From Gammaproteobacteria bacterium (GTDB lineage: Bacteria > Pseudomonadota > Gammaproteobacteria > Steroidobacterales > Steroidobacteraceae): 47,289 nt of DNA. The number at the start of each line of letters is the position of its first letter. The first letter of the stretch is position 1. The position numbers were made by a program, and so were the translations under genes. Below are positions 25,323 through 38,205 of the stretch, in pieces. The notes beneath the pieces were generated by a model. It was not told the origin of the DNA. It saw only the letters and a program-made list of their open reading frames with translations, and did no database searches. The stretch covers positions 1 through 47,289 of the forward strand of contig JANYFY010000030.1 in assembly GCA_025359565.1 (NCBI GenBank), read 5' to 3'.

Positions 25323-26350
25323 CGCAGTTATTCGGCGATTGGCTTCATATTTGGCCCACTCTACTGGCGTCGTTCATGGCATCTCTCGTCGAATTTGTTG
25401 AGGCGCTTACTGTAGTTCTAGCGATAGGTACGGTGCGCGGATGGCGACCCGCACTAGCCGGCTCGGGTCTCGCACTGTGCGCACTGCTAGTATTAGTCGC
25501 AATTTTTGGCTCTACTTTAAATAAGATTCCATTAGCGGCGGTGCAATTGGTTATCGGCACTCTGGTATTAATGTTCGGATTGCGTTGGCTACGTAAGGCG
25601 ATCTTAAGATCGGCAGGTGTATTACCGCTGCATGACGAAACAGCTGAATTCGCCAAACAAGCGGCATTAATGGGAAACACCGCGCGCACCCGCACCTGGG
25701 ACCGAGCCGGTTTTGCCGCCGCCTTTAAAATCGTGATGCTCGAGGGCGTGGAAGTGGTATTTATTGTAATCGCCATCGCAGCAAGCGGCAAAGCGCTGTG
25801 GGCTGCCACCATCGGTGCCATGTCGGCACTCATTCTGGTGATTTTTCTAGGGGTCGTGATACACCGACCGCTTGCCAAGATTCCAGAGAACGCCTTAAAA
25901 TTTGGGGTAGGGCTTTTATTAACGACTTTCGGCACCCTATGGGTCGGCGAAAGTGTGCAAATACAATGGCCCTGGGGCGACTTCACTTTACTGTTGCTGT
26001 TAAGCGGATATTTTTTAGTTGCTCAAGGGTTAGTTTTTCTGTGTCGATCGCGCTTCCGCGCGGGCTTGCGTTCCAAGAAGGCAACGGCTTACCCAAAACC
26101 TAGTAAGAGAATCGCTGCGAGTCCGGTCGGGGTGCTAGCAACCGTGATGCACGAAATGATTAGTTTGTTTGTAGATGACGGCGCACTAGCCAGCGGAATA
26201 CTGGTATGGGTGACGATCAATAAAGGCGGCAATCTAGTAGGCATCCAAACCGGAGTTATTGGCGGCGCAATGTTCTTCTTGGGATTTGTCAGTCTTTTAG
26301 GATTTAGCGCAACTCGCTCTTGCGCAACTCAAGCTAGCGAAACCCAGTGA
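25319..26350 (+). CDS. Multi-pass membrane protein with two FTR1-like ExxE motifs (COG4280-like)
   Basis: The 343-residue protein has about 8 hydrophobic segments. Two are similar in layout: VEFVEAL with E25 and E28, and LEGVEVV with E142 and E145. Paired ExxE motifs on helices are the metal-binding signature of FTR1 iron permeases and related LysE-superfamily proteins, so a metal or cation role is possible. It resembles proteins grouped as COG4280, function unknown. The ATG overlaps the channel stop by 4 bases, so it is the last gene of the second efflux operon. The last 17 bases overlap the convergent serine hydrolase. Confidence 0.7.
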   Translation: MTQLFGDWLHIWPTLLASFMASLVEFVEALTVVLAIGTVRGWRPALAGSGLALCALLVLVAIFGSTLNKIPLAAVQLVIGTLVLMFGLRWLRKAILRSAGVLPLHDETAEFAKQAALMGNTARTRTWDRAGFAAAFKIVMLEGVEVVFIVIAIAASGKALWAATIGAMSALILVIFLGVVIHRPLAKIPENALKFGVGLLLTTFGTLWVGESVQIQWPWGDFTLLLLLSGYFLVAQGLVFLCRSRFRAGLRSKKATAYPKPSKRIAASPVGVLATVMHEMISLFVDDGALASGILVWVTINKGGNLVGIQTGVIGGAMFFLGFVSLLGFSATRSCATQASETQ

Positions 26351-27392
26351 CCAAGGAAAACACTTCACGCGCTATTTTTTCGGCTGGGGCTTCCGCAAGA
26401 TTAGCGAGCACCACCACGGTCACTTGACTATCAAAATCACGCTCGATGGCAGATCTGAATCCTTGCCACGAGCCGTCAAATTCCAGCACCGGGTGCCCGC
26501 CTACTACGCCTTGGTCCCATCCAAATCCGTGGGATTTAAGGTTAATACTCGTTTGATCACGTCCCCAGAGAGCAGCATACGAGGCACTCGACAACAACGC
26601 GCGGCGATCAAGCGCCGCGATCCACGCGCTCCAGTCATCCAAGGACAAATAAAGGCTGCCATCGGCGGTCGCATTGAGCGCTGCCGATACAAAGTCCTGA
26701 TTTCGAATACCCTTCGACGTTCGTATATATCCCGCAGCACGATTAGCAACGATGTCGGTATCACTGATCACACGTGCGGTCCGCATTCCTAAAGGCTTAA
26801 ATACTTCACGGGCCAGAAAGTCACCATAAAACATACCGCTGACTCGAGTCGCAATAATTCCTGCCAGAATGTACCCCGTATTATTGTATTTCCACTGACT
26901 ACCCACCGGGAAATCTAAAGGAAATGAGTGCGCTAGTTTAATGATCTCATCGTCGCTATATTCGCGCCGATTGTCGAACAGGGCGCCCTCCTCGGTGTCC
27001 CTGATTCCCGACGTATGGTTAAGTAAGTGGCGGATAGTGATCGCCTCCCAGCCCGGCGGTCCCGCAGGCAAATACTTATCAATTCGATCATCTAGACGCA
27101 GCGCCCCACGCTCCACCAGCAAAAGGATCGCTGTAGCGGTAAATTGTTTACCCAAGGATCCACTTTGAAACATCGTCAGGCGCTTTACGACAACCGCGTG
27201 TTCAACATTAGCTAGGCCGTAGACCCCTATGCGCACAATCTTTTGATTGCGCATGACCAGTAACGCTAGGCCCGGAATTCGCTCGCTGCGTTGTGCTACG
27301 AGCATCGCATCATCAATAGCATCGCTCCACGCAGCAGCACCTATCAATGTAGTGACTAGTGCAACCAAGATCTTAAGGTGTATAGTTTTCAC
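26334..27392 (-). CDS. Class C beta-lactamase-like serine hydrolase, exported
   Basis: The 352-residue protein has a signal-like N-terminus (KILVALVTTLIGAAAW), the nucleophile motif SLGK (S79-K82) and YNN (169-171). The third motif, usually HTG or KTG, appears as FDGSWQG, so the usual basic residue is replaced; this is seen in some esterase-like members. It belongs to the same superfamily as the gene at 7224 but is only distantly similar to it. The gene converges on the efflux operon with a 17-base overlap. Substrate is unknown. Confidence 0.82.
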   Translation of the reverse strand: MKTIHLKILVALVTTLIGAAAWSDAIDDAMLVAQRSERIPGLALLVMRNQKIVRIGVYGLANVEHAVVVKRLTMFQSGSLGKQFTATAILLLVERGALRLDDRIDKYLPAGPPGWEAITIRHLLNHTSGIRDTEEGALFDNRREYSDDEIIKLAHSFPLDFPVGSQWKYNNTGYILAGIIATRVSGMFYGDFLAREVFKPLGMRTARVISDTDIVANRAAGYIRTSKGIRNQDFVSAALNATADGSLYLSLDDWSAWIAALDRRALLSSASYAALWGRDQTSINLKSHGFGWDQGVVGGHPVLEFDGSWQGFRSAIERDFDSQVTVVVLANLAEAPAEKIAREVFSLVTGFR

Positions 27393-27460
27393 TGGCTTCG
27401 ACTACTTGGACTTTATAGGTCACTGCTACAGCGTTTAAGGCTACTTCAATAGCATAGTAC

Positions 27461-27507
27461 AACTTAAATCACTTAAGTTTGCCGCCCCGCTACAAATTCA
27501 TTACAAT
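27461..27507 (+). promoter_or_regulatory. Promoter with palindromic operator for the APC permease operon
   Basis: A -35 box TTGCCG (27479-27484), a 17-base spacer and a -10 box TACAAT (27502-27507) form a good sigma-70 promoter. A perfect inverted repeat AACTTAA (27461-27467) / TTAAGTT (27473-27479) with a 5-base spacer abuts the -35 box and looks like an operator for a dimeric regulator, possibly the GntR protein encoded at 33184. Transcription would begin near 27514, only about 5 bases before the ATG at 27519, so the mRNA may be nearly leaderless. Boxes are seen; regulator pairing is inference. Confidence 0.6.
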
Positions 27508-27518
27508 GACCTAATGTT

Positions 27519-28934
27519 ATGAATATCGCTCACCCAAATCCTCGCGCAAATAGTGTCGGCTTGGGCGACGCCATTATCATGGGACTATCGAGTTCCGGTC
27601 CCTCACAAACGATAGCAGTAAGCCTTGCAGGACTAGTGGCCGTCAGCGGCTATGCCTCCATCATTCCCATCCTTATCTGCTTCCTCCCTATGATAGGAAT
27701 CGCAATTGCCTACCAGCGCCTTAATCGCTGGGATCAAAGTGCGGGAGCAACCTACACCTGGGTCGCAAAGGTATTTCATCCTTACCTGGGTTTTTTGTCA
27801 GGTTGGATGATTCTTTTGTACTACACCCTTGGTACCACCACACTGACTATACCCGCAGGTATTTATACGCTCGAACTAGTAGCACCCTCGTTGGTTGAAA
27901 ACCACGCCGCCATTTTCGCTGTCGGTGCGCTATGGAATGTGCTGGTCACGGCGCTGGCAATTTTGGGGCTCAAAATGGTGGCGCGATTTGAATGGCTCGT
28001 GGTCATATTTGAATATGTCGTATTGTTAACCGCCGCAAGTATCGCCGCGGCGGCTTTGTGGCATGGCAACACCGCGTCGCCATTTTCTTGGGGATGGTTT
28101 TCTTGGGACAGCGTCGGACACATGAAGGGCTTAATGGGGGGAATATTAATTGCTTGTTTCATGTACTCAGGCTGGGATGCGTCGGTGTATGTCAACGAAG
28201 AAACAACTGACCGCGCGAATAATCCGGGCAAAGCCGCGATTGCCAGCGTGGTGATGCTCGCACTCGTGTATTCCCTCACCACGTTCAGCTTTCAAAGCGT
28301 GCTCTCACCGCAAGCACTACAGGCTCACGCTGGAAATGTACTGGCGGCGATCGGTACGAAATTATTCTCTCCCCCTTGGGACGCTGTTATGGCTCTGGTT
28401 GTACTTACCGGTACACTTGCATCGCTTCAATCAGCAGTGGTTTCAGCGGCACGCATGGGTTTTGCAATGTCACGCGACCGAGTTATGCCGCGATGCTTTC
28501 AACAACTCACCGCCCGCAGCGCAAGTCCCTGGATCGCGACGCTTGCCATGAGCGCGCTTAACTTAAGTTTGCTCGCATTGGCACTCAGCACTACTACGAT
28601 CGCCACCGCCTTAACCACGGCTGCAAGCAGCTTGGGTCTTATTTCAATAATATTTTACGGCATTACAGCAGCAACCGCCGTTTGGCACCAGCGTAACGTG
28701 TTGACCCATAGTGCGCAGGACTTCTTATTAGGCGGTCTATTGCCATCAATAGGTGTTCTTTTCAGTTTTTGGGTCCTTGTCGAATCTAGCTTAAGCGGAG
28801 CTGTAAGCAACACCGTATTGGTATACGGCTTAGGGTCCATAGGATTAGGCGTTTTAATCATCCTGTTTTTACATAGAATAAAAGCCATCCCATTTTTTGT
28901 CTCGCAAAGGATCGACCATGAGAAAATACAATAA
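27519..28934 (+). CDS. APC superfamily amino acid/amine permease
   Basis: The 471-residue protein has about 12 membrane segments and APC features, such as SSSGPSQTIAVSLAGL in the first helix and GGILIACFMYSGWDAS in the middle. APC permeases import amino acids, amines or conjugates; E. coli FrlA, a fructoselysine permease, is one example. No ribosome site precedes the ATG, which fits the near-leaderless mRNA predicted from the promoter. Its end overlaps the aminotransferase start by 17 bases. It heads a four-gene operon with an aminotransferase, a sugar kinase and an aminosugar-phosphate deaminase, so the cargo probably has an amino group. Confidence 0.87.
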   Translation: MNIAHPNPRANSVGLGDAIIMGLSSSGPSQTIAVSLAGLVAVSGYASIIPILICFLPMIGIAIAYQRLNRWDQSAGATYTWVAKVFHPYLGFLSGWMILLYYTLGTTTLTIPAGIYTLELVAPSLVENHAAIFAVGALWNVLVTALAILGLKMVARFEWLVVIFEYVVLLTAASIAAAALWHGNTASPFSWGWFSWDSVGHMKGLMGGILIACFMYSGWDASVYVNEETTDRANNPGKAAIASVVMLALVYSLTTFSFQSVLSPQALQAHAGNVLAAIGTKLFSPPWDAVMALVVLTGTLASLQSAVVSAARMGFAMSRDRVMPRCFQQLTARSASPWIATLAMSALNLSLLALALSTTTIATALTTAASSLGLISIIFYGITAATAVWHQRNVLTHSAQDFLLGGLLPSIGVLFSFWVLVESSLSGAVSNTVLVYGLGSIGLGVLIILFLHRIKAIPFFVSQRIDHEKIQ

Positions 28935-30261
28935 TCCAGCACGCTCAGTGCATAGCGCAGAACTGTTCGAGCAGGCCTGCAAGTTAATTCCGGGAGGCGT
29001 CAACAGCACGGCTCGTGCCACCTGGTCGGGCTGGGATCCGTATCCGCTATTCGTCGATCGAGGCGAAGGCGCCTATTTATTCGATGCCGATGGCCACCGA
29101 TACATCGACTACTTACTCGGACTAGGTCCCATGATTCTCGGCCATCGCCCAGCGAAGGTCACCGCCGCGGTGATCGAACAAATCACAACACGCGGCACGG
29201 TGTTCGCGCTTCCTACAGCTCAAGAGGCGATACTTGCCGAAAAGATTATTGCAGCAGTGCCCAGCATCGACCAGGTACGCTTGTGTAATACCGGCACCGA
29301 AGCCGTGATATACGCGCTGCGTCTAGCACGCACCTTTACGGGGCGGGAAAAAGTGATTCGTTTTGAAGGGATGTATCACGGATTTTCTGAAGGTGTCTAT
29401 TGGAGCAAGCACCCAGCCCTTGAGACGGCGGGCTCCGATAACCGACCTATTGCAGTGGCACAAGGACCCGGGTTGTCTAAAAATTCCGGCGATCAGCTTA
29501 TAATTTTGCCGTGGAATGATATCGACGTATTGCGCGAGACCGTCAAACGTAACCCGCATTCCATTGCTGCAATCCTGACCGAACCTGTGATGTGCAACAC
29601 CGGCTGTATTTTACCCAAACCAGGATATCTGCAAGCGATGCGGGAAATCGCTGACGCGCACGACATTGTATTAGTCTACGACGAAGTCATTACGGGCTTT
29701 CGGCTAGGCTTCGGAGGCGCCCAGGGTCATTATCACATTAAGCCCGATATCTCTGTGTTCGCCAAAGGGTTAGGCGGCGGATATCCCGTGGCTGCACTTG
29801 GCGGACGACGTGACATTATGCGATTGGTGGCCACCGGAACCGTGTCGATGGCGGGCACTTACAGTGCCAATGGTATTGCTGTCGCCGCCGCTATTGCGGC
29901 TCTCGACGAGCTGAGTGTGCCAGGCAAGTATGAGGCGCTGTTTGCGCGGTGTTCGCGATTCTATGATGGCCTAAGCGCTATATTTTCACGTCACGGATTA
30001 CCCGCTTACGTCGTTGGCTTAGGGCCAGTTCTGCAAGTATGGTTCGCCGAGAAGCCCATACATAATTACCGCGATGCCGCGCGCTATGCCAACCATGAGA
30101 TTTTTCGGCGTTGGTGGGAAGGAATGCTGGAGCGCGATGTACTCTTTCATCCGGGCGCTTTCGAAAATTTATTTGTATCATTTGCACACTCGGAGGCAGA
30201 TATTGCCACAACGCTTATTGCGGCCGACGAAGTTGCCGGACAATTAAAGGCCCATGTCTAA
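28918..30261 (+). CDS. Class III PLP-dependent aminotransferase (glutamate-1-semialdehyde aminomutase-like)
   Basis: The 447-residue enzyme has the class III features: MYHG near 152-155 for PLP stacking, D255-E256 in VYDEVITGF, and the PLP lysine K283 in FAKGLGGGYP. The N-terminus IPGGVNS is typical of glutamate-1-semialdehyde aminomutase relatives, but the genome context is catabolic, so a transaminase or mutase on a different substrate is more likely than heme synthesis. I chose the ATG at 28918 because AAAGG at 28906-28910 lies 7 bases before it; the TTG at 28897 is a weaker choice. It overlaps the permease by 17 bases and the kinase by 8. Confidence 0.85.
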   Translation: MRKYNNPARSVHSAELFEQACKLIPGGVNSTARATWSGWDPYPLFVDRGEGAYLFDADGHRYIDYLLGLGPMILGHRPAKVTAAVIEQITTRGTVFALPTAQEAILAEKIIAAVPSIDQVRLCNTGTEAVIYALRLARTFTGREKVIRFEGMYHGFSEGVYWSKHPALETAGSDNRPIAVAQGPGLSKNSGDQLIILPWNDIDVLRETVKRNPHSIAAILTEPVMCNTGCILPKPGYLQAMREIADAHDIVLVYDEVITGFRLGFGGAQGHYHIKPDISVFAKGLGGGYPVAALGGRRDIMRLVATGTVSMAGTYSANGIAVAAAIAALDELSVPGKYEALFARCSRFYDGLSAIFSRHGLPAYVVGLGPVLQVWFAEKPIHNYRDAARYANHEIFRRWWEGMLERDVLFHPGAFENLFVSFAHSEADIATTLIAADEVAGQLKAHV

Positions 30262-31735
30262 TCCGACATCACTAGAATCAATCACAGTCGGTATCGATCT
30301 CGGAACATCATCGATCAAGGTTGTAGCCCTTAAAAATACTGCACCGATTGGCGAGGCGGTCGCGCCATTCCCAACGCTTAGCGAACTGCCTCATCAAGCG
30401 GAGCAAGAGCCGCAAGATTGGTTAGACTCCACCTCGAGGGCAATGCACGCGCTAAATTCCGAAGTGACGCGCCAGCAAGGACCCCGTTGGACTGATCAAG
30501 TTTCCGCTATCGGTCTGACCGGTCAATTACCAACCCTGGTGTGTCTATCAAGCCACGGCCCCATCGCACCGGCGATCACTTGGCGCGATGGTCGTGCTGA
30601 CGCCTGGGGCACTCAAAAAGTGCAAGCCCGGGCAGCCATGTACGCAACCACTGGCATGCCCATTGATGCTCGCTATCTTGCGCCCATGTTTGAATTTCAT
30701 TTTGCCAAACATCGTCATCAGGTGCGTCGGATTTTATCGGCCAAAGATTACTTGCTCTGTTGCCTGACCGGACTTGAAATCACAGAACCCTCGACGGCAG
30801 CCGGTTTCGGCGTATATGATTTACATACGCATGAATTCAGCGAACAATTATGTGAATTCTGGAATTTACCGACTGCCATACTGCCAAAAATTCGGCCTGC
30901 AAACTCATTGGCTGGGCCCCTCACCGAGCAAGGCGCGAGACTACTCGGTTTAAGCGCCGGCATTCCCGTTAGCACCGGAGCCGCAGATTCCGTATCCGCA
31001 GCTTTTGCCCTCGCAGGTTTAGACGAACATTGTGTATCCATCAGTTTCGGCTCAAGCACAGTGATGGTAAGCGCATGCCCTACAATCAAGCTCGATTCGA
31101 GCGCACGCTACTTAGTCACCCCGCACGTTATCGACCGCTGGTATGGCCGTGAAATGGATTTGCTAGCGACCGGAACCGGCTATCAATGGTTAAGTAAATT
31201 ATTCGGTTGGAACGACCACCAAATCGATACCCACGCGGCGCGCTCACCCCCAGGTGCCAACGGACTAGTGTTCCCGCCCTATCTAGCAGGTGGCGAACAA
31301 GGCGCATTATGGAATCCCAAACTTAAGGGCGCGCTATTCGGCTTAACCCTACACCACACTCAGAGCGATATCGCACGCGCCTATCTAGAGGGCGTATTTT
31401 TCGAAATTAGACGCTGTATCGACGTGTTAGCTGAATGCGGCGCAATTAGTCTAATAAAAGCCAGCGGCAACCTTACGGCGTCCCCGACCAGCTTGCAGTT
31501 ATTAGCCGATATCTTACAGCGCCCCGTTAGCGGCTCCACCAATCGCTCACCCGCCGCCATCGGCGCAGCACTACTCGCTCAGAAACTAGTTGCTCATAGC
31601 ACCGGCGCTCACGATCCTGCCGCAGCCGCAGGGACGGCCACTTCAGCTGCCGTAAAACACCATTCTGCAAACGCTGATTTATACAACAACTTATATCAAC
31701 GATATTTAGAAAGGTCGGCCCTATGCGAGTACTAA
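30254..31735 (+). CDS. FGGY family carbohydrate kinase (xylulokinase-like)
   Basis: The 493-residue kinase has the ATP-binding DLGTSS at 15-20, WRDGRAD at 109-115, the GAADS motif with candidate catalytic base D244, and the C-terminal FGGY signature ASGNLTASPTSLQLLADILQ. FGGY kinases phosphorylate sugars, ketoses or polyols. Xylulokinase is the nearest named type, but the substrate is probably different because the next gene encodes an aminosugar-phosphate deaminase. It overlaps the aminotransferase by 8 bases and the deaminase by 13. AAAGG lies just before its ATG. The sequence looks complete and intact. Confidence 0.87.
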   Translation: MSNPTSLESITVGIDLGTSSIKVVALKNTAPIGEAVAPFPTLSELPHQAEQEPQDWLDSTSRAMHALNSEVTRQQGPRWTDQVSAIGLTGQLPTLVCLSSHGPIAPAITWRDGRADAWGTQKVQARAAMYATTGMPIDARYLAPMFEFHFAKHRHQVRRILSAKDYLLCCLTGLEITEPSTAAGFGVYDLHTHEFSEQLCEFWNLPTAILPKIRPANSLAGPLTEQGARLLGLSAGIPVSTGAADSVSAAFALAGLDEHCVSISFGSSTVMVSACPTIKLDSSARYLVTPHVIDRWYGREMDLLATGTGYQWLSKLFGWNDHQIDTHAARSPPGANGLVFPPYLAGGEQGALWNPKLKGALFGLTLHHTQSDIARAYLEGVFFEIRRCIDVLAECGAISLIKASGNLTASPTSLQLLADILQRPVSGSTNRSPAAIGAALLAQKLVAHSTGAHDPAAAAGTATSAAVKHHSANADLYNNLYQRYLERSALCEY

Positions 31736-32427
31736 CAGAGCATTCACCACACGGTTTCACAATTACAGCGGCTAATTGGGTAGCCAACCATCTTAAGTCG
31801 AAGCCGCAATCGACGCTGGCATTGCCCACTGGACAAACTCCATTGAGTCTGTACGCCGAATTAGTCGCAAGAACAAAAATGCGCCAAATGAGCTTAAACT
31901 CAGCCTATATTTTCAACCTCGACGAATATTGTGGATTAGGCAAGGCTGACCCGCACAGCTACTCAGCTTTCCTACACCAACATCTGATCGATCCATTGAA
32001 CTTACACTCGAAGAACGTGCGCCTACTACAGGGCGATGCTCCAGACTTACAAGCAGAATGCCAATCGTACGACGCCGAAATTGCGCACCACGACGGAATC
32101 GACCTATGCATTCTAGGTCTCGGCACCAACGGCCATATCGGCTTCAACGAGCCACAATCCGCTTGGAACTTGCGTACCCATCGAGTTAATTTGTCCGAAG
32201 AAACCCGCGCCGTACACGCCCGCCAGTCGCCCCAACCATGGGCTATACCAACTCATGGGTTAACGATGGGGATCCAAACTGTCCTAGAGGCTCGAAACGT
32301 TCTACTACTAATCGCGGGCGCCAACAAACGCGGCGCCCGTGATGCACTGCGCGGTCACGCTGACCCAAAATGGCCAGTCACGAGCCTGTTGTCGCATCCT
32401 AATTTGACGATTGTCGAACTTTCTTGA
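31723..32427 (+). CDS. Glucosamine-6-phosphate deaminase/isomerase-like protein
   Basis: The 234-residue protein matches NagB enzymes, which convert glucosamine-6-phosphate to fructose-6-phosphate and ammonia. Seen: LPTGQTP near 34-40, FNLDEY with D67 (equivalent to E. coli D72), GTNGHIGFNEP with H138 and E143 (equivalent to H143 and E148), ETR near 170 and a lysine in the GANK block. The position of E. coli D141 is N136, as in shorter Bacillus-type NagB. The active site thus looks intact. It is the last gene of the operon and overlaps the kinase by 13 bases; its 3' end overlaps the convergent regulator by 29. Acting on an N-substituted or different aminosugar phosphate is possible. Confidence 0.85.
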   Translation: MRVLTEHSPHGFTITAANWVANHLKSKPQSTLALPTGQTPLSLYAELVARTKMRQMSLNSAYIFNLDEYCGLGKADPHSYSAFLHQHLIDPLNLHSKNVRLLQGDAPDLQAECQSYDAEIAHHDGIDLCILGLGTNGHIGFNEPQSAWNLRTHRVNLSEETRAVHARQSPQPWAIPTHGLTMGIQTVLEARNVLLLIAGANKRGARDALRGHADPKWPVTSLLSHPNLTIVELS

Positions 32428-33184
32428 TACGCGATGTATTCGCAAGTTCAACCGCCTCCACAAAAAAACTCGGCGCCGTCTCAAGGCGAAATGCAAAAGC
32501 TTTCGCGACAAATATCATTTTAAAGGCATCAATCGGTTGATGCTGCGCGGAAAGGCTAACTCCGGCCACTTCAACGACCCATTCGAAGTTCATCAAATTT
32601 AATAACTCGTGTTCACGCGTCAAAGCGGGCCGCGATAAAAGGGTCTGTTCTTCACGCGCTTCTTTAAGGCCGTAGACAGTATCGAGTAATTCATAAAGCG
32701 AACCTTTTTCCAGCCGTCGCAAATACGCTCCAAGATCGGGAGCCAATATCTTGGGGATCACTGATAACTCCCAGATTACGGGTCGATTATTTAAGATGCG
32801 CAACCGTGACACCTCCCAAACCATTGCCCCCGCAGACAAACCCAACCGCCTGGCTTCCTCGACTAACGACACCCGTGCCACACAGCCCAATACACGACTC
32901 TGTAACTTGGAACGCGCGTCTAAATGCAAGCCATTACGCAAGCTTCCGATCTTTGTAGTCTCGGCATTGACCCGCGGACGCGCAACGAAAGTTCCCCGAC
33001 CTTGCTCACGCCGCACTACTGCCTGCGCGGAAAGTTCTGATAGAGCACGCCGCACAGTGACAAGACTAACCCCCGCCAATGCCGCAAGCTGCGCTTCAGT
33101 GGGCAATTGATTGCCTTCACTCAATTTTTTTTCGTCTATGTATTGCAGAACGAAGGCGATTGTTTTTTCGTATAAAGATTTCAC
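32399..33184 (-). CDS. GntR family (HutC/UTRA) transcriptional regulator
   Basis: The 261-residue protein has an N-terminal winged helix-turn-helix (about 1-68, with LPTEAQLAALAGVSLVTVRRALSEL) and a C-terminal UTRA ligand domain (about 85-245). UTRA regulators respond to small metabolites such as sugar phosphates, for example NagR and FrlR. Start is a GTG at 33184 with no strong ribosome site. It lies between the permease operon, on which it converges, and the TonB receptor, from which it diverges, and is the obvious candidate regulator for both. The inducer would then be a sugar-phosphate intermediate. Targets and ligand are inferred. Confidence 0.88.
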   Translation of the reverse strand: MKSLYEKTIAFVLQYIDEKKLSEGNQLPTEAQLAALAGVSLVTVRRALSELSAQAVVRREQGRGTFVARPRVNAETTKIGSLRNGLHLDARSKLQSRVLGCVARVSLVEEARRLGLSAGAMVWEVSRLRILNNRPVIWELSVIPKILAPDLGAYLRRLEKGSLYELLDTVYGLKEAREEQTLLSRPALTREHELLNLMNFEWVVEVAGVSLSAQHQPIDAFKMIFVAKAFAFRLETAPSFFVEAVELANTSRIKKVRQSSN

Positions 33185-33278
33185 TGGTGAATTCTACGTC
33201 GATATGCGTACATAACGCGATCTATAGCCACAATACTTCCACAACCGGCCACTTTGCACCATCACAATATTGAGTATG

Positions 33279-33310
33279 TCATTGCAATGAATAGGCTATT
33301 TAGCTATATT
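33279..33310 (+). promoter_or_regulatory. Promoter with palindromic operator for the TonB receptor
   Basis: A -35 box TTGCAA (33282-33287), a 17-base spacer and a -10 box TATATT (33305-33310) form a good sigma-70 promoter upstream of the TonB receptor. The -35 box lies inside a perfect 12-bp palindrome TCATTGCAATGA (33279-33290), so a bound dimer would block RNA polymerase. A second short palindrome CAATATTG is at 33265-33272. The palindrome differs from the AACTTAA/TTAAGTT repeat before the permease, so one regulator may not control both. Boxes are seen; operator role is inference. Confidence 0.58.
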
Positions 33311-33339
33311 CGTAAAGGCAATCAATGGGAGATTTCACT

Positions 33340-36153
33340 ATGCGTCGATCCCTCGTCCATTACTTCCCCGCCTGTTTATTCATCGCACCGTTGTGCGCGG
33401 CGCAATCAAGCGGACCACCCGTAAGTAGCCCGCAATCGAATGCGCCCCTCGAAACTATTGTGGTAACGGGTTCCTATATCCGCCGTACCGATACTGAATC
33501 GCCCTCACCCGTTATGCTTTTGAACGCTGATGACATCCTCAAACAAGGCTTTAATAACCTTGCGGACGCCATCCGCTCTATTTCTGCCGACAGCAGTGGC
33601 ACCCTCACTCAGGCCTTTAGCGGTGCGATGGCCGGCGGCGCCAGCGGTGTTTCGTTGCGCGGTCTTTCCGTCGATGCAACTTTAGTTCTTCTGGACGGAC
33701 ACCGCCTAGCACCTTATCCACTGGCTGATGACGGGCAACGACCCTTTACGGATATCTCATCGCTACCGCTCGGAATCGTCGATCGGGTTGAAGTACTGCA
33801 GGATGGCGCCTCCGCAATTTACGGCTCAGATGCCATTGCCGGCGTGGTAAACGTGATTACAAAGAAACAATTCACCGGATTGGATCTCACCGGCGGTATC
33901 GGTTCAACTTACCGATGGGACGGGCAATCGCAACGATTCGCAGCGACATTCGGTATGGGTGACCTGGCCGCCGACGGTCACAATTTTTATTTTAATGTGG
34001 AGTTCCGTCATCAAGAAGCCATTTCTCAAGAAGCGCGTGGCTCTTACATTAAAGCACTTGACCTAACACCCTATGGAGGGCCCGACCTACGGGGCGGAGT
34101 AATTAACGGCAATTTACCTCTAGCGGGAACGACCTACACCGTCCCAGGTCAAGTGGCCCCGCTCGTAGGCGGTCAGGCCGCTGATGTTTTTTATCAATTG
34201 CCAGGCTGCACACCGCAGAATCTCATCCCCAATAGCGGTGGATGTGCGTGGGACACGAATCTCTACAAAAAATTACAACCACGCACCGAAGGCGTTAATC
34301 TTTCCGCTCATTGGACCCAAACCCTCGCAGGCGCTTGGGTAAATGCACTCAGCGCTAATTTTTTCTTATCGCAGTCTGAGCAGTACCGCCAGCCCGACGC
34401 TTACAATGTCGGAATTCCGTTAGTACCCTTCGTATGGTCGGGATCGAAATCCGGCATCGTCAATCAATTTGACACCAGCAACACGCAAATTGTGTTGCCT
34501 GCTAATTCGCTCGACAATCCTTTTAATCCGTCCAGCCCTTATGCGGCCGCAGCGCAAACTTTTTACGGTGCCAATTACGCCGGTTACCTAGGTCAACCCG
34601 CACTATTTTACGGAGCACTCACTGAATTTCCGCCGCAGCATACTTTGTATTACACCGATGTCTATCGCATCGTCGACGATCTAACCGGTAGCGTCGGTAA
34701 GTGGGATGTGTCCGCAGCAGCCGGCTATGTGCGCGACGAAACGCATATCACCTATCAAGGCTTTGTCAATGTCACTGCACTGAACGCGGCGTTCGCGAGC
34801 GGCACCTTCCGCGTGGGTCAAAACGCGAATTTAAATTCTCGAGCCACTATCGCAAGTCTTGCGCCTGAAACTCACGATGTTGCGACCTCCGATATTGCCT
34901 TCATTTCAGCGACCGCCTCGCGCAAGCTCTTTCCACTACCCGGTGGTGATTTCGCCGTTGCCGCGGGCGCCGAAGCACGCATCTGGCAAGAAAATAACCC
35001 CGGTCAACCCGGTGCTCCTGAAGGCAATATCCTCATGGACGGCAGCTTTTATGCGAGCGGTTCACAAACGGTGCAAGCCGCATTCGTAGAATTCTCCGCG
35101 CCCTTTTTAAATTCCCTTGAAATGGATGCCGCAGCTCGCGTCGACCACTACCAAACCGCTGGCACTTCACTCACGCCGAAATTTGGTTTTAAATGGAAAA
35201 TCCTGCCGCAACTTGCCTTGCGCGGAACTTACGCACGCGGTTTTCGAGCGCCGGGAATCTCCGAAAGTGGCAATGCAGGCACCGCTACCAGTGTCGCACC
35301 GGCTCCCGTTGATCCGATCCGTTGCCCCATCACCGGGTTGGCGGCCGATTGCAGCGGTCAAGGCAGCGCGGTCGCATTACTTACGCGCAGCAACCCGAAT
35401 TTACGCCCCGAAAAATCGCGCAGTTTTACGCTCGGCGTCATCATAGAGCCAACCAAACAAGTCAACCTAACCTTTGATTATTTCAATATCCGACGTACTA
35501 ACGAAATTACCACCGCTCCCTATAGTTCCGATAATGCGATACGTACACCGGTCCCCGCCGGCTCTGCACTGCCTGGGCAAATCATCGAATATATTGTTCC
35601 CTACATAAACGCCTCGTACTCATTGGTTTCTGGAGTCGATGCCGAGCTTAAAACTGCGATTAGACTGGGAAGCTACGGAAAGCTCAGCCTACGACTGGAT
35701 GTCAATCATCTTATTCAATCGGAACAAACTGTGGACGGCACCACCTTTCATTGGGTGGGCACTGTAGGTCCCACTGCGCTTGGCGGATCCGTCGGCACGC
35801 CCGCCACACGCGGTTCGGCGACTATTGACTGGTCATTGGCTTCGTTGTCTATCGGCACAACCTACAATTACCGCAGTCAAATGCGCGGTATTGATGAATC
35901 GATTGGGGGTACATGTTTACAATTAACCGATCCTAATCCGCATTGCTACGTAGCAGGCTTTGGTTACGTCAATGTTTACGCGCAATACCAATGGAACTCC
36001 CATCTAGATGTCACTGCGACGATTGCCAATATTACCAACCGATTGCCGCCACTCGATACAGTGACCTACGGCGGCCAGAATTACGACGCATCGCTCGACC
36101 AGGCCGGAGCAATTGGACGATACATGGAAGCTGCGTTTCACTACCGATTTTAG
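33340..36153 (+). CDS. TonB-dependent outer-membrane receptor
   Basis: The receptor (937 residues from the ATG at 33340) has a signal peptide MRRSLVHYF..LCAAQ, a TonB-box-like ETIVVTGS, a plug domain (about 30-160: SLRGLSVDATLVLLDGHR, VEVLQDGASAIYGSDAIAGVVNVITKK), and a beta-barrel ending in the aromatic HYRF. Such receptors take up large or scarce substrates using proton-motive force. This one belongs to the type common in Xanthomonadales-like bacteria and is not obviously a siderophore receptor. Two in-frame starts are possible (33325 and 33340); I prefer 33340, with GGGAG 8 bases before and a better signal peptide. It is divergent from the GntR gene and 15 bases before the M61 gene. Confidence 0.9.
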   Translation: MRRSLVHYFPACLFIAPLCAAQSSGPPVSSPQSNAPLETIVVTGSYIRRTDTESPSPVMLLNADDILKQGFNNLADAIRSISADSSGTLTQAFSGAMAGGASGVSLRGLSVDATLVLLDGHRLAPYPLADDGQRPFTDISSLPLGIVDRVEVLQDGASAIYGSDAIAGVVNVITKKQFTGLDLTGGIGSTYRWDGQSQRFAATFGMGDLAADGHNFYFNVEFRHQEAISQEARGSYIKALDLTPYGGPDLRGGVINGNLPLAGTTYTVPGQVAPLVGGQAADVFYQLPGCTPQNLIPNSGGCAWDTNLYKKLQPRTEGVNLSAHWTQTLAGAWVNALSANFFLSQSEQYRQPDAYNVGIPLVPFVWSGSKSGIVNQFDTSNTQIVLPANSLDNPFNPSSPYAAAAQTFYGANYAGYLGQPALFYGALTEFPPQHTLYYTDVYRIVDDLTGSVGKWDVSAAAGYVRDETHITYQGFVNVTALNAAFASGTFRVGQNANLNSRATIASLAPETHDVATSDIAFISATASRKLFPLPGGDFAVAAGAEARIWQENNPGQPGAPEGNILMDGSFYASGSQTVQAAFVEFSAPFLNSLEMDAAARVDHYQTAGTSLTPKFGFKWKILPQLALRGTYARGFRAPGISESGNAGTATSVAPAPVDPIRCPITGLAADCSGQGSAVALLTRSNPNLRPEKSRSFTLGVIIEPTKQVNLTFDYFNIRRTNEITTAPYSSDNAIRTPVPAGSALPGQIIEYIVPYINASYSLVSGVDAELKTAIRLGSYGKLSLRLDVNHLIQSEQTVDGTTFHWVGTVGPTALGGSVGTPATRGSATIDWSLASLSIGTTYNYRSQMRGIDESIGGTCLQLTDPNPHCYVAGFGYVNVYAQYQWNSHLDVTATIANITNRLPPLDTVTYGGQNYDASLDQAGAIGRYMEAAFHYRF

Positions 36154-36168
36154 AAAGAGCCTAAAACA

Positions 36169-36240
36169 ATGCCACTCACCTCGATGCCACTTGCCTCGAT
36201 GCCGCTCGCCACCACGCCGCTCGCCTCGATACGACTCGCC
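36169..36240 (+). repeat. 15-bp tandem repeat at the 5' end of the M61 gene
   Basis: Nearly five copies of a 15-base unit encode MPLTS, MPLAS, MPLAT, TPLAS and IRLAA. The first copies are most alike and the later ones diverge. The repeat carries several in-frame ATG codons. In-frame copy-number change would alter only the length of the region before the signal peptide. Confidence 0.8.
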
Positions 36241-38205
36241 GCACGATCGACACCTCGGCGCGCGCAATATCGCCACGCTTCTCAGTGCATCGTTTTCAGT
36301 ATTCTGCTGGCAGCCACACTGTTGCCTAGCAACTTCGGTTTGGCCGCCGAGTCTACGGTAACCACGATAAGCGTCGATGCCACGCAGGCACCGCGAGGCA
36401 TTATGTCGGCTCATATGGACATTCCCGTCAGCAGCGGTCTCGTGACATTGGTATATCCCAAGTGGCTCCCGGGTCGGCATAGCCCAGCTGGACCCATAAC
36501 CTCGCTGGGTGCTCCACGCTTCAGTGCGAATGGTCATCCGCTGCTATGGCATCGTGACGCGATCGATCTTTACGCTTTTCACGTGGAAGTTCCTGCAGGC
36601 GTCACGCAGCTCAATGCAGACGTGGAACTATTGACGGCACCGGCACCCGATGGCGTGGTGCAGGGTTTGGAAACACCGCGTTACGCGACAGAAGCTTTAC
36701 TAGTTCTTGAGTGGAATCAGCTCATCTTGTATCCGGCGGGAATAGCCAGCGATGATCTTGTCTATCGCGCATCGGTACGCCTACCTCCAGATTGGAAATT
36801 CGCGACGGCGCTTAAAGCCGCGTCTTCAAAGCATGGTGAAACAGACAACAGTGTGAATTTTGAGCCCGTCTCACTAACCACTCTAGTTGATTCAACACTA
36901 TTAGCCGGACGCTTCTTTCGTGAACTAACCTTGGGTGGGCCTCCCAACGTGACATTGCACATAGCAGCCGACACGCCTGTTGCGCTCAATATGTCACCCG
37001 ATACGGAAGCGCACTATAAACGCCTCGTCCATGAAGCTACCGCATTGTTTGGCGCGACCCACTACGACCATTATGAGTTTTTGTGGTCTCTCACTGATCA
37101 AATCATGCCCGATGGCTTGGAGCATCATGAGTCCAGTGATAATCGTTCGCCTTTACGCGCGCTACTCGATGATCCCACGCGTCGCGCGGAAGCGAACCTA
37201 CTACCACACGAATTCGTTCATTCTTGGAACGGCAAATATCGACGGCCCGCGGGCCTAGCTACGTCTAACTACCAAACTCCCATGCAAGACGAAATGCTAT
37301 GGGTCTATGAGGGACTAACAGAGTATCTAGGCGACGTACTGGCGACCCGTAGTGGACTCCTCACCGAGGCAGAGTTTCGCGAGGAACTTGCCCGTATTTC
37401 GGCCGCAATGAATTCCCACAGTGCGCGCGAGTGGCGCTCGTTACAAGAGACGACTATAGCCGCGCCATTACTCTACTATCAGTCACGCGCCTGGGCGGCT
37501 CGCCTGCGACGACAAGATGATTTCTATCAGGAATCAGCGTTGCTGTGGCTCGAAGCGGATACCCTAATTCGCCAAGGATCCCAGGGAAAACATAGTCTTG
37601 ACGATTTTTGCAAGCTGTTCTACGGGGCACCGAACTCTTCACCCCAGGTAGTCACGTATGATTTCACCGCTCTTGTCAAAACACTGAATAGCGTATTTCC
37701 TTACGATTGGGCGAAATTCTGGACTGTTAGACTCAATCGCTTGCGAGCCGAAGCGCCTTTAGAGGGATTGCAAGCGGCTGGTTGGCACCTTGAGTTCACG
37801 GCGATGCCTTCAACGATGCACCTCGCTCATGAGGCCGATGACAAAGATTTAGACCTGCGCTACTCGCTAGGGTTTTACGTTGACGACGAGGGAGCTACCA
37901 TCGGCGATGTTATCCCACGCTCTCCGGCCGATCTTGCCGGCGCAGCACCCGGCAGCCATATAGTCGCGCTGAATGGTTACAAATGGTCCAAAGAATTATT
38001 GCATGACACGCTTGCCGCACAAGCAGCTCCGCCATCGCCACAAGGCTCACTCTCACCGCTCACATTTTTGGTAGAGAAAGATAATATATTTAAAACGCTG
38101 AACATTAAGTATGCGAGTGGCGAACGCTATCCAAATTTATCGCGCATACCACAAACCAAGGATTTACTTACCGAAATAGCGCGGCCACTATTTCATTTGC
38201 GCTAG
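36169..38205 (+). CDS. M61 family metallopeptidase (glycyl aminopeptidase-like) with PDZ domain
   Basis: The 678-residue peptidase has a zinc site HEFVH (H347, E348, H351), a third ligand E381 in WVYEGLTEYLGD, and a C-terminal PDZ-like region (about 560-640) with a GATIGDVIPRSPADLAGAAPGS block. M61 enzymes remove N-terminal glycine or alanine from peptides. An unusual N-terminus made of five degenerate MPLAS-like units precedes a signal segment (about 38-63), so export to the periplasm is likely. Several ATGs inside the repeat (36169, 36184, 36199) could serve as starts. It follows the receptor by 15 bases and should be co-transcribed, which suggests a peptide-derived substrate. Confidence 0.87.
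   Translation: MPLTSMPLASMPLATTPLASIRLAARSTPRRAQYRHASQCIVFSILLAATLLPSNFGLAAESTVTTISVDATQAPRGIMSAHMDIPVSSGLVTLVYPKWLPGRHSPAGPITSLGAPRFSANGHPLLWHRDAIDLYAFHVEVPAGVTQLNADVELLTAPAPDGVVQGLETPRYATEALLVLEWNQLILYPAGIASDDLVYRASVRLPPDWKFATALKAASSKHGETDNSVNFEPVSLTTLVDSTLLAGRFFRELTLGGPPNVTLHIAADTPVALNMSPDTEAHYKRLVHEATALFGATHYDHYEFLWSLTDQIMPDGLEHHESSDNRSPLRALLDDPTRRAEANLLPHEFVHSWNGKYRRPAGLATSNYQTPMQDEMLWVYEGLTEYLGDVLATRSGLLTEAEFREELARISAAMNSHSAREWRSLQETTIAAPLLYYQSRAWAARLRRQDDFYQESALLWLEADTLIRQGSQGKHSLDDFCKLFYGAPNSSPQVVTYDFTALVKTLNSVFPYDWAKFWTVRLNRLRAEAPLEGLQAAGWHLEFTAMPSTMHLAHEADDKDLDLRYSLGFYVDDEGATIGDVIPRSPADLAGAAPGSHIVALNGYKWSKELLHDTLAAQAAPPSPQGSLSPLTFLVEKDNIFKTLNIKYASGERYPNLSRIPQTKDLLTEIARPLFHLR

Follow-up and report, generated by a model that had tools for sequence, protein, structure and literature searches.

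The DNA analysed here, referred to throughout as the window, is a 47,289-nucleotide contig (JANYFY010000030.1) of a gammaproteobacterium of the family Steroidobacteraceae, whose genome (GCA_025359565.1) amounts to 3.14 Mb in 33 contigs. We focus on a group of five genes encoding a permease, a pyridoxal 5'-phosphate (PLP) enzyme related to HemL, an FGGY kinase, a NagB-like deaminase and a GntR/UTRA regulator. These genes probably form the core of a catabolic unit for an amino sugar that would be supplied in conjugated form, bound to an aminoacyl or peptidyl group. The best overall explanation, to which we give a probability of about 0.4, is that the conjugate is hydrolysed and that the amino compound then passes through the kinase, the HemL-like enzyme and NagB. 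The strongest results are a kinase-or-phosphatase dichotomy around one active site, a palindrome common to the genes of the unit and the presence of a second type of deaminase (NagB-II) where the operon NagB is absent. Gene families in the window rest on Pfam matches, all above the curated cut-offs, and equivalog scores refer to NCBIfam models. The five genes are as follows.

27519..28934, + strand: APC-family permease, putative importer of the freed amino compound (471 amino acids; PF13520, AA_permease_2, 116.4 bits)
28918 (ATG) or 28897 (TTG)..30261, + strand: HemL-like class III PLP enzyme, proposed amino-sugar-phosphate aminomutase (447 or 454 amino acids; PF00202, Aminotran_3, 203.2 bits)
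30254..31735, + strand: FGGY kinase of a distinct clade (493 amino acids; FGGY_N 130.7 bits, FGGY_C 80.2 bits)
31723..32427, + strand: NagB-like deaminase, by sequence a glucosamine-6-phosphate (GlcN6P) deaminase (234 amino acids; PF01182, Glucosamine_iso, 80.9 bits)
32399..33184, - strand: GntR/UTRA regulator (261 amino acids; GntR, PF00392, 58 bits; UTRA, PF07702, 69.9 bits)

From the permease to NagB, successive plus-strand genes overlap by 17 (counted from the ATG of the PLP enzyme), 8 and 13 bases, and the GntR gene converges on the NagB gene with an overlap of 29 bases. The open reading frames (ORFs) and Pfam matches thus agree with a first-pass annotation of this DNA, which had described an overlapping operon of APC permease, class III aminotransferase, FGGY kinase and NagB-like deaminase convergent with a GntR/UTRA gene.

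The PLP enzyme is closest to glutamate-1-semialdehyde aminomutase (GSAM), the product of hemL. It passes the model for the HemL-like (GSA-aminomutase) subfamily, NF000818 (441.9 bits, cut-off 398), and its closest solved relatives are GSAM structures (2gsa, E 6.7e-99), yet it falls below the hemL equivalog TIGR00713 (418.6 against a cut-off of 527.3 bits). In an alignment with 2gsa, Ser29, Arg32, Thr305 and Glu406 are kept, whereas Trp67 is replaced by Leu, Tyr301 by Ser, and the gating loop carries a seven-residue insert. The window enzyme therefore departs from the GSAM pattern in both the substrate pocket and the gating loop, and its partner gene is for a sugar kinase or, in relatives, a phosphatase. 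HemL-like genes also lie elsewhere in the host genome. One, at G000:C24, shows 39% identity; another (G000:C7:516066-517310, L020) encodes a class III enzyme with 38% identity and has a Rieske-type oxygenase-like ORF (by eye) adjacent on the opposite strand.

When our genome collection was scanned with aligned PLP-enzyme sequences, 134 relatives came up, the best 80 of which, together with the window, make up the 81 loci compared here. The loci were selected by the PLP enzyme, which is hence present in all of them, and the genes of each locus were assigned by homology. Since the loci are related and near copies (L039/L041, L040/L044) were retained, the counts below are not independent and Fisher values overstate the contrasts. 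The PLP enzyme lies beside an FGGY kinase in 30 of the 81 loci and beside an MtnX-like HAD-IB phosphatase in 44; no locus has both and seven have neither. The pairing with the kinase is more than chance because these 30 loci span five phyla. Outside the window, members of the same kinase clade occur in three (G021, G003, G034) of 60 genomes (host included), each time adjoining the PLP enzyme; the clade is present in 11 of the 150 genomes of a family sample (host included) and, in a class sample of 369, in the host only.

The two types of locus differ sharply in gene content. All 30 kinase loci have an importer, that is, an APC permease or a peptide ATP-binding cassette (ABC) system, against one of the 44 phosphatase loci, and a peptidase of family S12, M17 or M61 occurs in 23/30 against 1/44. 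Homologues of the APC permease (18/30), the GntR regulator (21/30), the S12 hydrolase (21/30), the TonB receptor (10/30) and the M61 peptidase (10/30) are found in kinase loci and in none of the phosphatase loci, which also have neither NagB (18/30 kinase loci) nor kinase. Instead, the 44 phosphatase loci encode a FemAB-like transferase (23 loci), an arginase-fold protein (23) and a MacA-like exporter part (18). By their gene content the kinase loci look catabolic and the phosphatase loci look biosynthetic or exporting. The importers, the peptidases and the deaminase that the window's branch seems to need bear out the general idea of the first-pass annotation, catabolism of an amino sugar or of an amino acid–amino sugar conjugate by one operon.

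Despite these different settings, the active site is nearly constant. We chose 19 columns of the active site and loop for comparison; 18 of them show no variation in 81/81 loci and the remaining one deviates once. The Trp, Lys and His of the loop insert are invariant in all 81 and could hold a phosphate; in the window enzyme, Lys162 and His163 of the gating loop (counted from base 28924) are the candidates for such a contact. Only one of 445 columns (column 413, Phe or Tyr, adjoining Glu414) splits the kinase and phosphatase groups at the 85% level. On a tree of the PLP enzymes the locus labels are clustered, with four changes against a shuffled mean of 32.2. The deep branches of this tree are weak, the outgroup branches are saturated, the phosphatase group is set off by a branch supported at only 64/28, and the kinase group needs three changes. 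Kinase and phosphatase, each in its own set of loci, suggest that the PLP enzyme handles a phosphorylated compound in both sets, and we regard it as quite likely that it acts on a phosphorylated sugar. The first-pass annotation had the aminotransferase use the released amine; this is less well supported, since its constant pairing with the kinase in 30 loci and its near-identical active site in 44 phosphatase loci make a phosphorylated sugar the more likely substrate.

Several of these loci have features of their own. The protein at L077:7979-8893 (- strand), which represents the arginase-fold group, has no Pfam or NCBIfam match, has homologues in 23/44 phosphatase loci and is conserved together with the HAD phosphatase and the FemAB-like transferase. 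Its arginase/ureohydrolase fold was predicted (pLDDT 93.1; best Foldseek match 3pzl, E 9.5e-9) from 20 of the 25 members of its cluster. Ketoacyl synthase-like and acyl carrier protein-like ORFs (by eye) lie near phosphatase loci L054, L070, L075, L088, L090, L095 and similar rhodanobacterial loci, so their product may be acylated. In the Caulobacterales loci L043, L045, L048 and, more weakly, L042, neither kinase nor phosphatase was found and the PLP enzyme lies 3' of a GMC-type oxidoreductase-like gene (by eye), which would be a third setting for the same enzyme. The acidobacterial kinase loci L105, L107, L108 and L109 add an enolase-superfamily protein resembling o-succinylbenzoate synthases and N-acylamino-acid racemases. 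The one that was scanned passes TIGR01928 (340.9 bits, cut-off 200.65), a family to which N-acylamino-acid racemases belong. Three of these four loci have an RpiR-like SIS protein instead of a detected GntR gene.

Evidence on the end of the pathway comes from NagB and its functional counterpart. The window protein keeps the NagB motifs FNLDEY and GTNGHIGFNEP, as seen in its alignment with 2bkv and 1jt9, and scores below the nagB equivalog TIGR00502 (196.7 against a cut-off of 236.9 bits). It is the sole NagB-like gene of the host genome, whose other PF01182 match is 6-phosphogluconolactonase-like. In the window's branch, all six kinase genomes without an operon NagB (G003, G424=G534, G425, G426=G487, G514, G564) encode a NagB-II relative (299.6 to 344.9 bits), against three of the eight with one (G000, G021, G034, G436=G524, G437=G467, G439, G440=G501, G441; two-sided Fisher 0.031). 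Locus L034 (G434/G483) was left out of the latter count, as its contig ends past the kinase and part of a NagB gene is found on a different contig; with it included the count is 3/9 (Fisher 0.028). Among genomes lacking the kinase, NagB-II occurs in 41/139 of the family sample (Fisher 0.0009 against 6/6) and in 21/369 of the class sample; restricted to genomes within the 150-genome family sample, the comparison is 4/4 against 41/139 (Fisher 0.009). The NagB-II relative adjoins a NagA-like ORF (by eye) in the two genomes that were opened. For the non-proteobacterial loci L101, L102, L103, L107, L108 and L109, NagB-like genes lie elsewhere in the genome, some at 28–33% identity. Altogether, candidate deaminases turned up in 31 of the 32 kinase genomes examined, a count that is weak alone because such deaminases are common. 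It is the 6/6 in the window's branch that makes GlcN6P a likely intermediate, and a GlcN6P deaminase of either type seems to be required there.

The kinase is probably not a xylulokinase. It does not reach the xylulokinase equivalog TIGR01312 (251.4 against 380.25 bits), and 30/30 kinases have Pro after Leu, Met or Ile (QLP in 20, QMP in 7, QIP in 2, MIP in 1) where the solved xylulokinases 2itm (XylB) and 5vm1 have Met-His, a pair that belongs to the sugar site of XylB. Leu-Pro is also found at this position in the unassigned structure 3ifr. The known substrates of FGGY kinases, among them the glycerol kinases, are ketoses and open polyols and not aldoses.

The unit is wider than the five genes because both the conserved neighbourhood and a common palindrome extend to an S12 hydrolase gene, divergent to the left of the permease, and to the TonB receptor and M61 genes to the right of the GntR gene. 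The flanking features are these.

26334..27392, - strand: S12 (beta-lactamase-like) hydrolase, proposed conjugate peptidase (PF00144, 208.3 bits; signal-peptide-like start, by eye)
27498..27509, no strand assigned: palindrome TCATTACAATGA, candidate operator 5' of the permease gene (shared-site search)
33279..33290, no strand assigned: palindrome TCATTGCAATGA, candidate operator between the GntR and TonB receptor genes (shared-site search)
33325..36153, + strand: TonB-dependent receptor, by which the conjugate is proposed to cross the outer membrane (PF00593, 142.6 bits; Plug, 71.2 bits)
36169..38205, + strand: M61 peptidase (PF05299, 110.2 bits)

With up to one mismatch, TCATTRCAATGA has six matches in the window on both strands against 0.45 expected, a number reached in 0/100 shuffles. 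Across the 30 kinase loci, the palindrome (TCATTRYAATGA-like, up to one mismatch in ten positions) has 33 matches, of which 25 sit 5' of pathway genes (from -40 to 260 bases upstream of the point where homology to the gene begins) and cover 20 of the 30 loci. The consensus was derived from the window, which supplies two of the 25. Controls gave far fewer, with 4.6 matches in 200-base block shuffles (0.65 before pathway genes) and five matches in the 44 phosphatase loci (one before a pathway gene). The site stands 5' of the PLP enzyme gene in five rhizobial loci (L037, L039, L040, L041, L046) and 5' of permease, S12, TonB receptor or GntR genes in the others. The operon is probably under GntR control, and we infer that the GntR protein would bind the candidate palindrome.

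Genome-wide, exact TCATTRYAATGA occurs in nine of 16 genomes searched, against one of 16 for the reversed control. Eight exact sites outside the loci were opened, six of them within ORFs of at least 184 amino acids and two 5' of ORFs, and no clear further regulon member was found among them. One of the latter lies 30 bases 5' of a threonine-dehydratase-like ORF (by eye; L186, G021:C19:9026), in one genome only; this ORF is a possible regulon member and a possible hint at the amino acid partner. The other lies 8 bases 5' of a 106-amino-acid ORF in G435 (L189).

How the substrate enters may differ between lineages. The window permease has no specific match among the NCBIfam equivalogs (best 82.2 bits, cut-off 556.8). 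The likeness to the fructoselysine permease FrlA drawn in the first-pass annotation holds at the superfamily level and not beyond it, as the FrlA model NF008466 gives 23.2 bits against a cut-off of 800. In loci of the TonB/APC type, signal-peptide-like starts (by eye) were seen for S12 (11 loci viewed) and M61 (four), whereas in loci of the peptide-ABC type the S12 (eight) and M17 proteins (four, one aligned from within only) had no such start (by eye). Cutting outside followed by import of the product, and import of the whole followed by cutting inside, would both fit an amide-like conjugate, and entry of the substrate in such a form appears reasonably probable.

Taken together, these observations suggest the following route, in which we infer every substrate and reaction, as well as the identity of the amino sugar, from sequence. 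The conjugate would cross the outer membrane via the TonB receptor, exported S12 and M61 hydrolases would release the amino compound, and the APC permease would import it; in the rhizobial loci, uptake of the conjugate would fall to a peptide ABC system, and hydrolases without signal peptides would cut it inside the cell. The FGGY kinase would then phosphorylate a ketose-like amino sugar, the simplest being 1-amino-1-deoxy-D-fructose. GSAM converts a 2-amino-aldehyde to a 1-amino-2-ketone, swapping the amine between neighbouring carbons. Open-chain glucosamine is a 2-amino-aldehyde, and 1-amino-1-deoxyfructose is the corresponding 1-amino-2-ketone. The HemL-like enzyme would shift the amine from C1 to C2 in this type of reaction (from aminoketone to aminoaldehyde), yielding GlcN6P, from which NagB, or a NagB-II encoded elsewhere in the genome, would release ammonia and fructose-6-phosphate. 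Passage through GlcN6P is likely, while the aminomutase step on a 1-amino-ketose is tentative, at somewhat less than even odds. The Amadori/Heyns idea of the first-pass annotation returns here in another form, as the proposed conversion, at the level of the 6-phosphates, of the ammonia Amadori sugar (1-amino-1-deoxyfructose) to the ammonia Heyns sugar (glucosamine).

The alternatives differ mainly in what they ask of the PLP enzyme. The kinase might phosphorylate an amino polyol such as serinol or a 2-amino-2-deoxyhexitol, with the PLP enzyme as a transaminase giving a ketose phosphate, NagB serving a related amino sugar and the phosphatase loci running the same reaction for synthesis. The place of glycerol kinases among the FGGY kinases suits this route. 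There are precedents in azasugar clusters, where a PF00202 aminotransferase acts on a phospho-ketose beside a phosphatase, once a PF12710 HAD protein (PMC8382821), and in RtxA, which makes serinol phosphate from dihydroxyacetone phosphate (PMC3222319); the type 3 phosphatases are likewise PF12710. However, the route requires no GlcN6P deaminase, although NagB is in 18/30 operons and NagB-II in the six branch genomes without it, and the azasugar aminotransferase motif (PMC8382821) is absent from the window enzyme. We therefore consider it unlikely. Serinol itself, which the FGGY membership of glycerol kinases and the serinol phosphate of RtxA would suggest for the kinase loci, was rejected because NagB would have no role. 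D-glucosaminate, polyoxamic acid, muropeptides and inosamines seem poor candidates, having no use for a GlcN6P deaminase or lacking an expected marker enzyme.

A simpler scheme makes the FGGY protein a glucosamine kinase directly followed by NagB, in textbook order, with the PLP enzyme degrading the amino acid or amine bound to glucosamine. The peptidases and importers would suit such a glucosamine conjugate, but the constant pair is kinase and PLP enzyme (30/30) rather than kinase and NagB (18/30), and the near-unchanged PLP active site in 44 loci with neither NagB nor kinase would go unexplained. An FGGY glucosamine kinase is not known either, and we find this scheme quite unlikely. The order of kinase, PLP enzyme and NagB would be accounted for if the kinase used a different 2-amino-hexose, for instance mannosamine, whose phosphate the PLP enzyme epimerised at C2 to GlcN6P; racemases of the class III fold do exist. 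The sequence gives no sign of a racemase, the solved relatives being GSAM and the NCBIfam matches mutases and transaminases, and the preference of FGGY kinases for ketoses and open polyols counts against an aldose, which makes epimerisation very unlikely. Finally, the first-pass annotation had a Heyns product phosphorylated and then split by the NagB-like enzyme into amine and fructose-6-phosphate. It named the gene families correctly and importers for amino acid conjugates would fit, but NagB is absent from 12 of the 30 kinase loci (in two of which, L034 and L103, the contig stops at or close to the locus). NagB-II can apparently stand in for it, and this suggests that its substrate is plain GlcN6P rather than an N-substituted Heyns product. 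The aminotransferase, in turn, is in every kinase locus (by the selection of the loci) and common to the 44 phosphatase loci. The scheme as a whole is most improbable, while the broader interpretation from which it came is partly supported.

Several points weigh against the route through conjugate hydrolysis, the kinase, the HemL-like enzyme and NagB. The HemL-like family includes plain transaminases, and the window enzyme scores 403.6 bits with the model of one of them, GntE, so that it may be a transaminase rather than a mutase. Neither free 1-amino-1-deoxyfructose nor its aminoacyl conjugates are known to be common substrates in nature. All NagB-II matches lie below the curated cut-off of that model (430 bits). 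In the rhizobial group the operon NagB and NagB-II co-occur in eight of nine genomes, so no exchange is visible there, and a NagB-like protein was not found in the L105 genome, which gave a 6-phosphogluconolactonase-like match and weak SIS matches only. Seven of the 30 kinase loci show none of the peptidase families S12, M17 and M61, two of these (L101, L102) having an M20-like gene (by eye). Ten of the 30 lack the palindrome, namely L044, L072, L073 and all seven non-proteobacterial loci, four of which are acidobacterial.

Among known systems, the closest in logic are the fructoselysine/fructosamine operons (frl) of E. coli and B. subtilis, which also import and phosphorylate their substrate and then set free an amine together with a glycolytic sugar phosphate. 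The E. coli operon shares the GntR-UTRA type of regulator, a match at the family level with no equivalog cut-off reached. The window differs in having an FGGY kinase rather than the PfkB-type FrlD and NagB rather than the SIS-type deglycase FrlB, and in adding a HemL-like enzyme, peptidases and a TonB receptor. With the catabolism of N-acetylglucosamine and glucosamine through NagB or NagB-II it shares the NagB motifs and, probably, the end point of fructose-6-phosphate and ammonia; the FGGY kinase and the HemL-like enzyme set it apart, and no NagA-, NagK- or NagX-type gene was seen in the Pfam annotation of the genes from 26334 to 38205. The azasugar three-gene clusters (PMC8382821) and RtxA (PMC3222319) resemble the 44 phosphatase loci in placing a PLP aminotransferase for a phospho-sugar beside a phosphatase. 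In the window, the partner is a kinase, no sugar dehydrogenase is present among the five operon genes (Pfam annotation), and the published consensus SGNXFR... is absent, with no SGN in the PLP enzyme (by eye). In a literature search aimed at the gene set or the reaction, none of the papers listed described it; most subscription papers lay outside this search.

In its widest form, the proposal is of an amino-sugar-phosphate aminomutase of heme-pathway descent that would interconvert 1-amino-ketose phosphates and GlcN6P. Producers, with the phosphatase, the FemAB-like transferase and the exporters, would make and secrete an aminoacyl amino sugar, and consumers such as the window's host, with the importers, the peptidases, a new FGGY amino-ketose kinase and NagB, would eat such a compound. 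This full picture is speculative and somewhat unlikely. The distinction between this PLP enzyme and GSAM matters for annotation, as database records often call the enzyme glutamate-1-semialdehyde aminomutase (e.g. several plasmid matches with 67–68% identity). If the proposal is true, it would give GlcN6P a new entry route and provide both the HemL fold and the FGGY kinases with a new activity; it would also predict an exported amino-sugar conjugate made by one set of bacteria and eaten by another.

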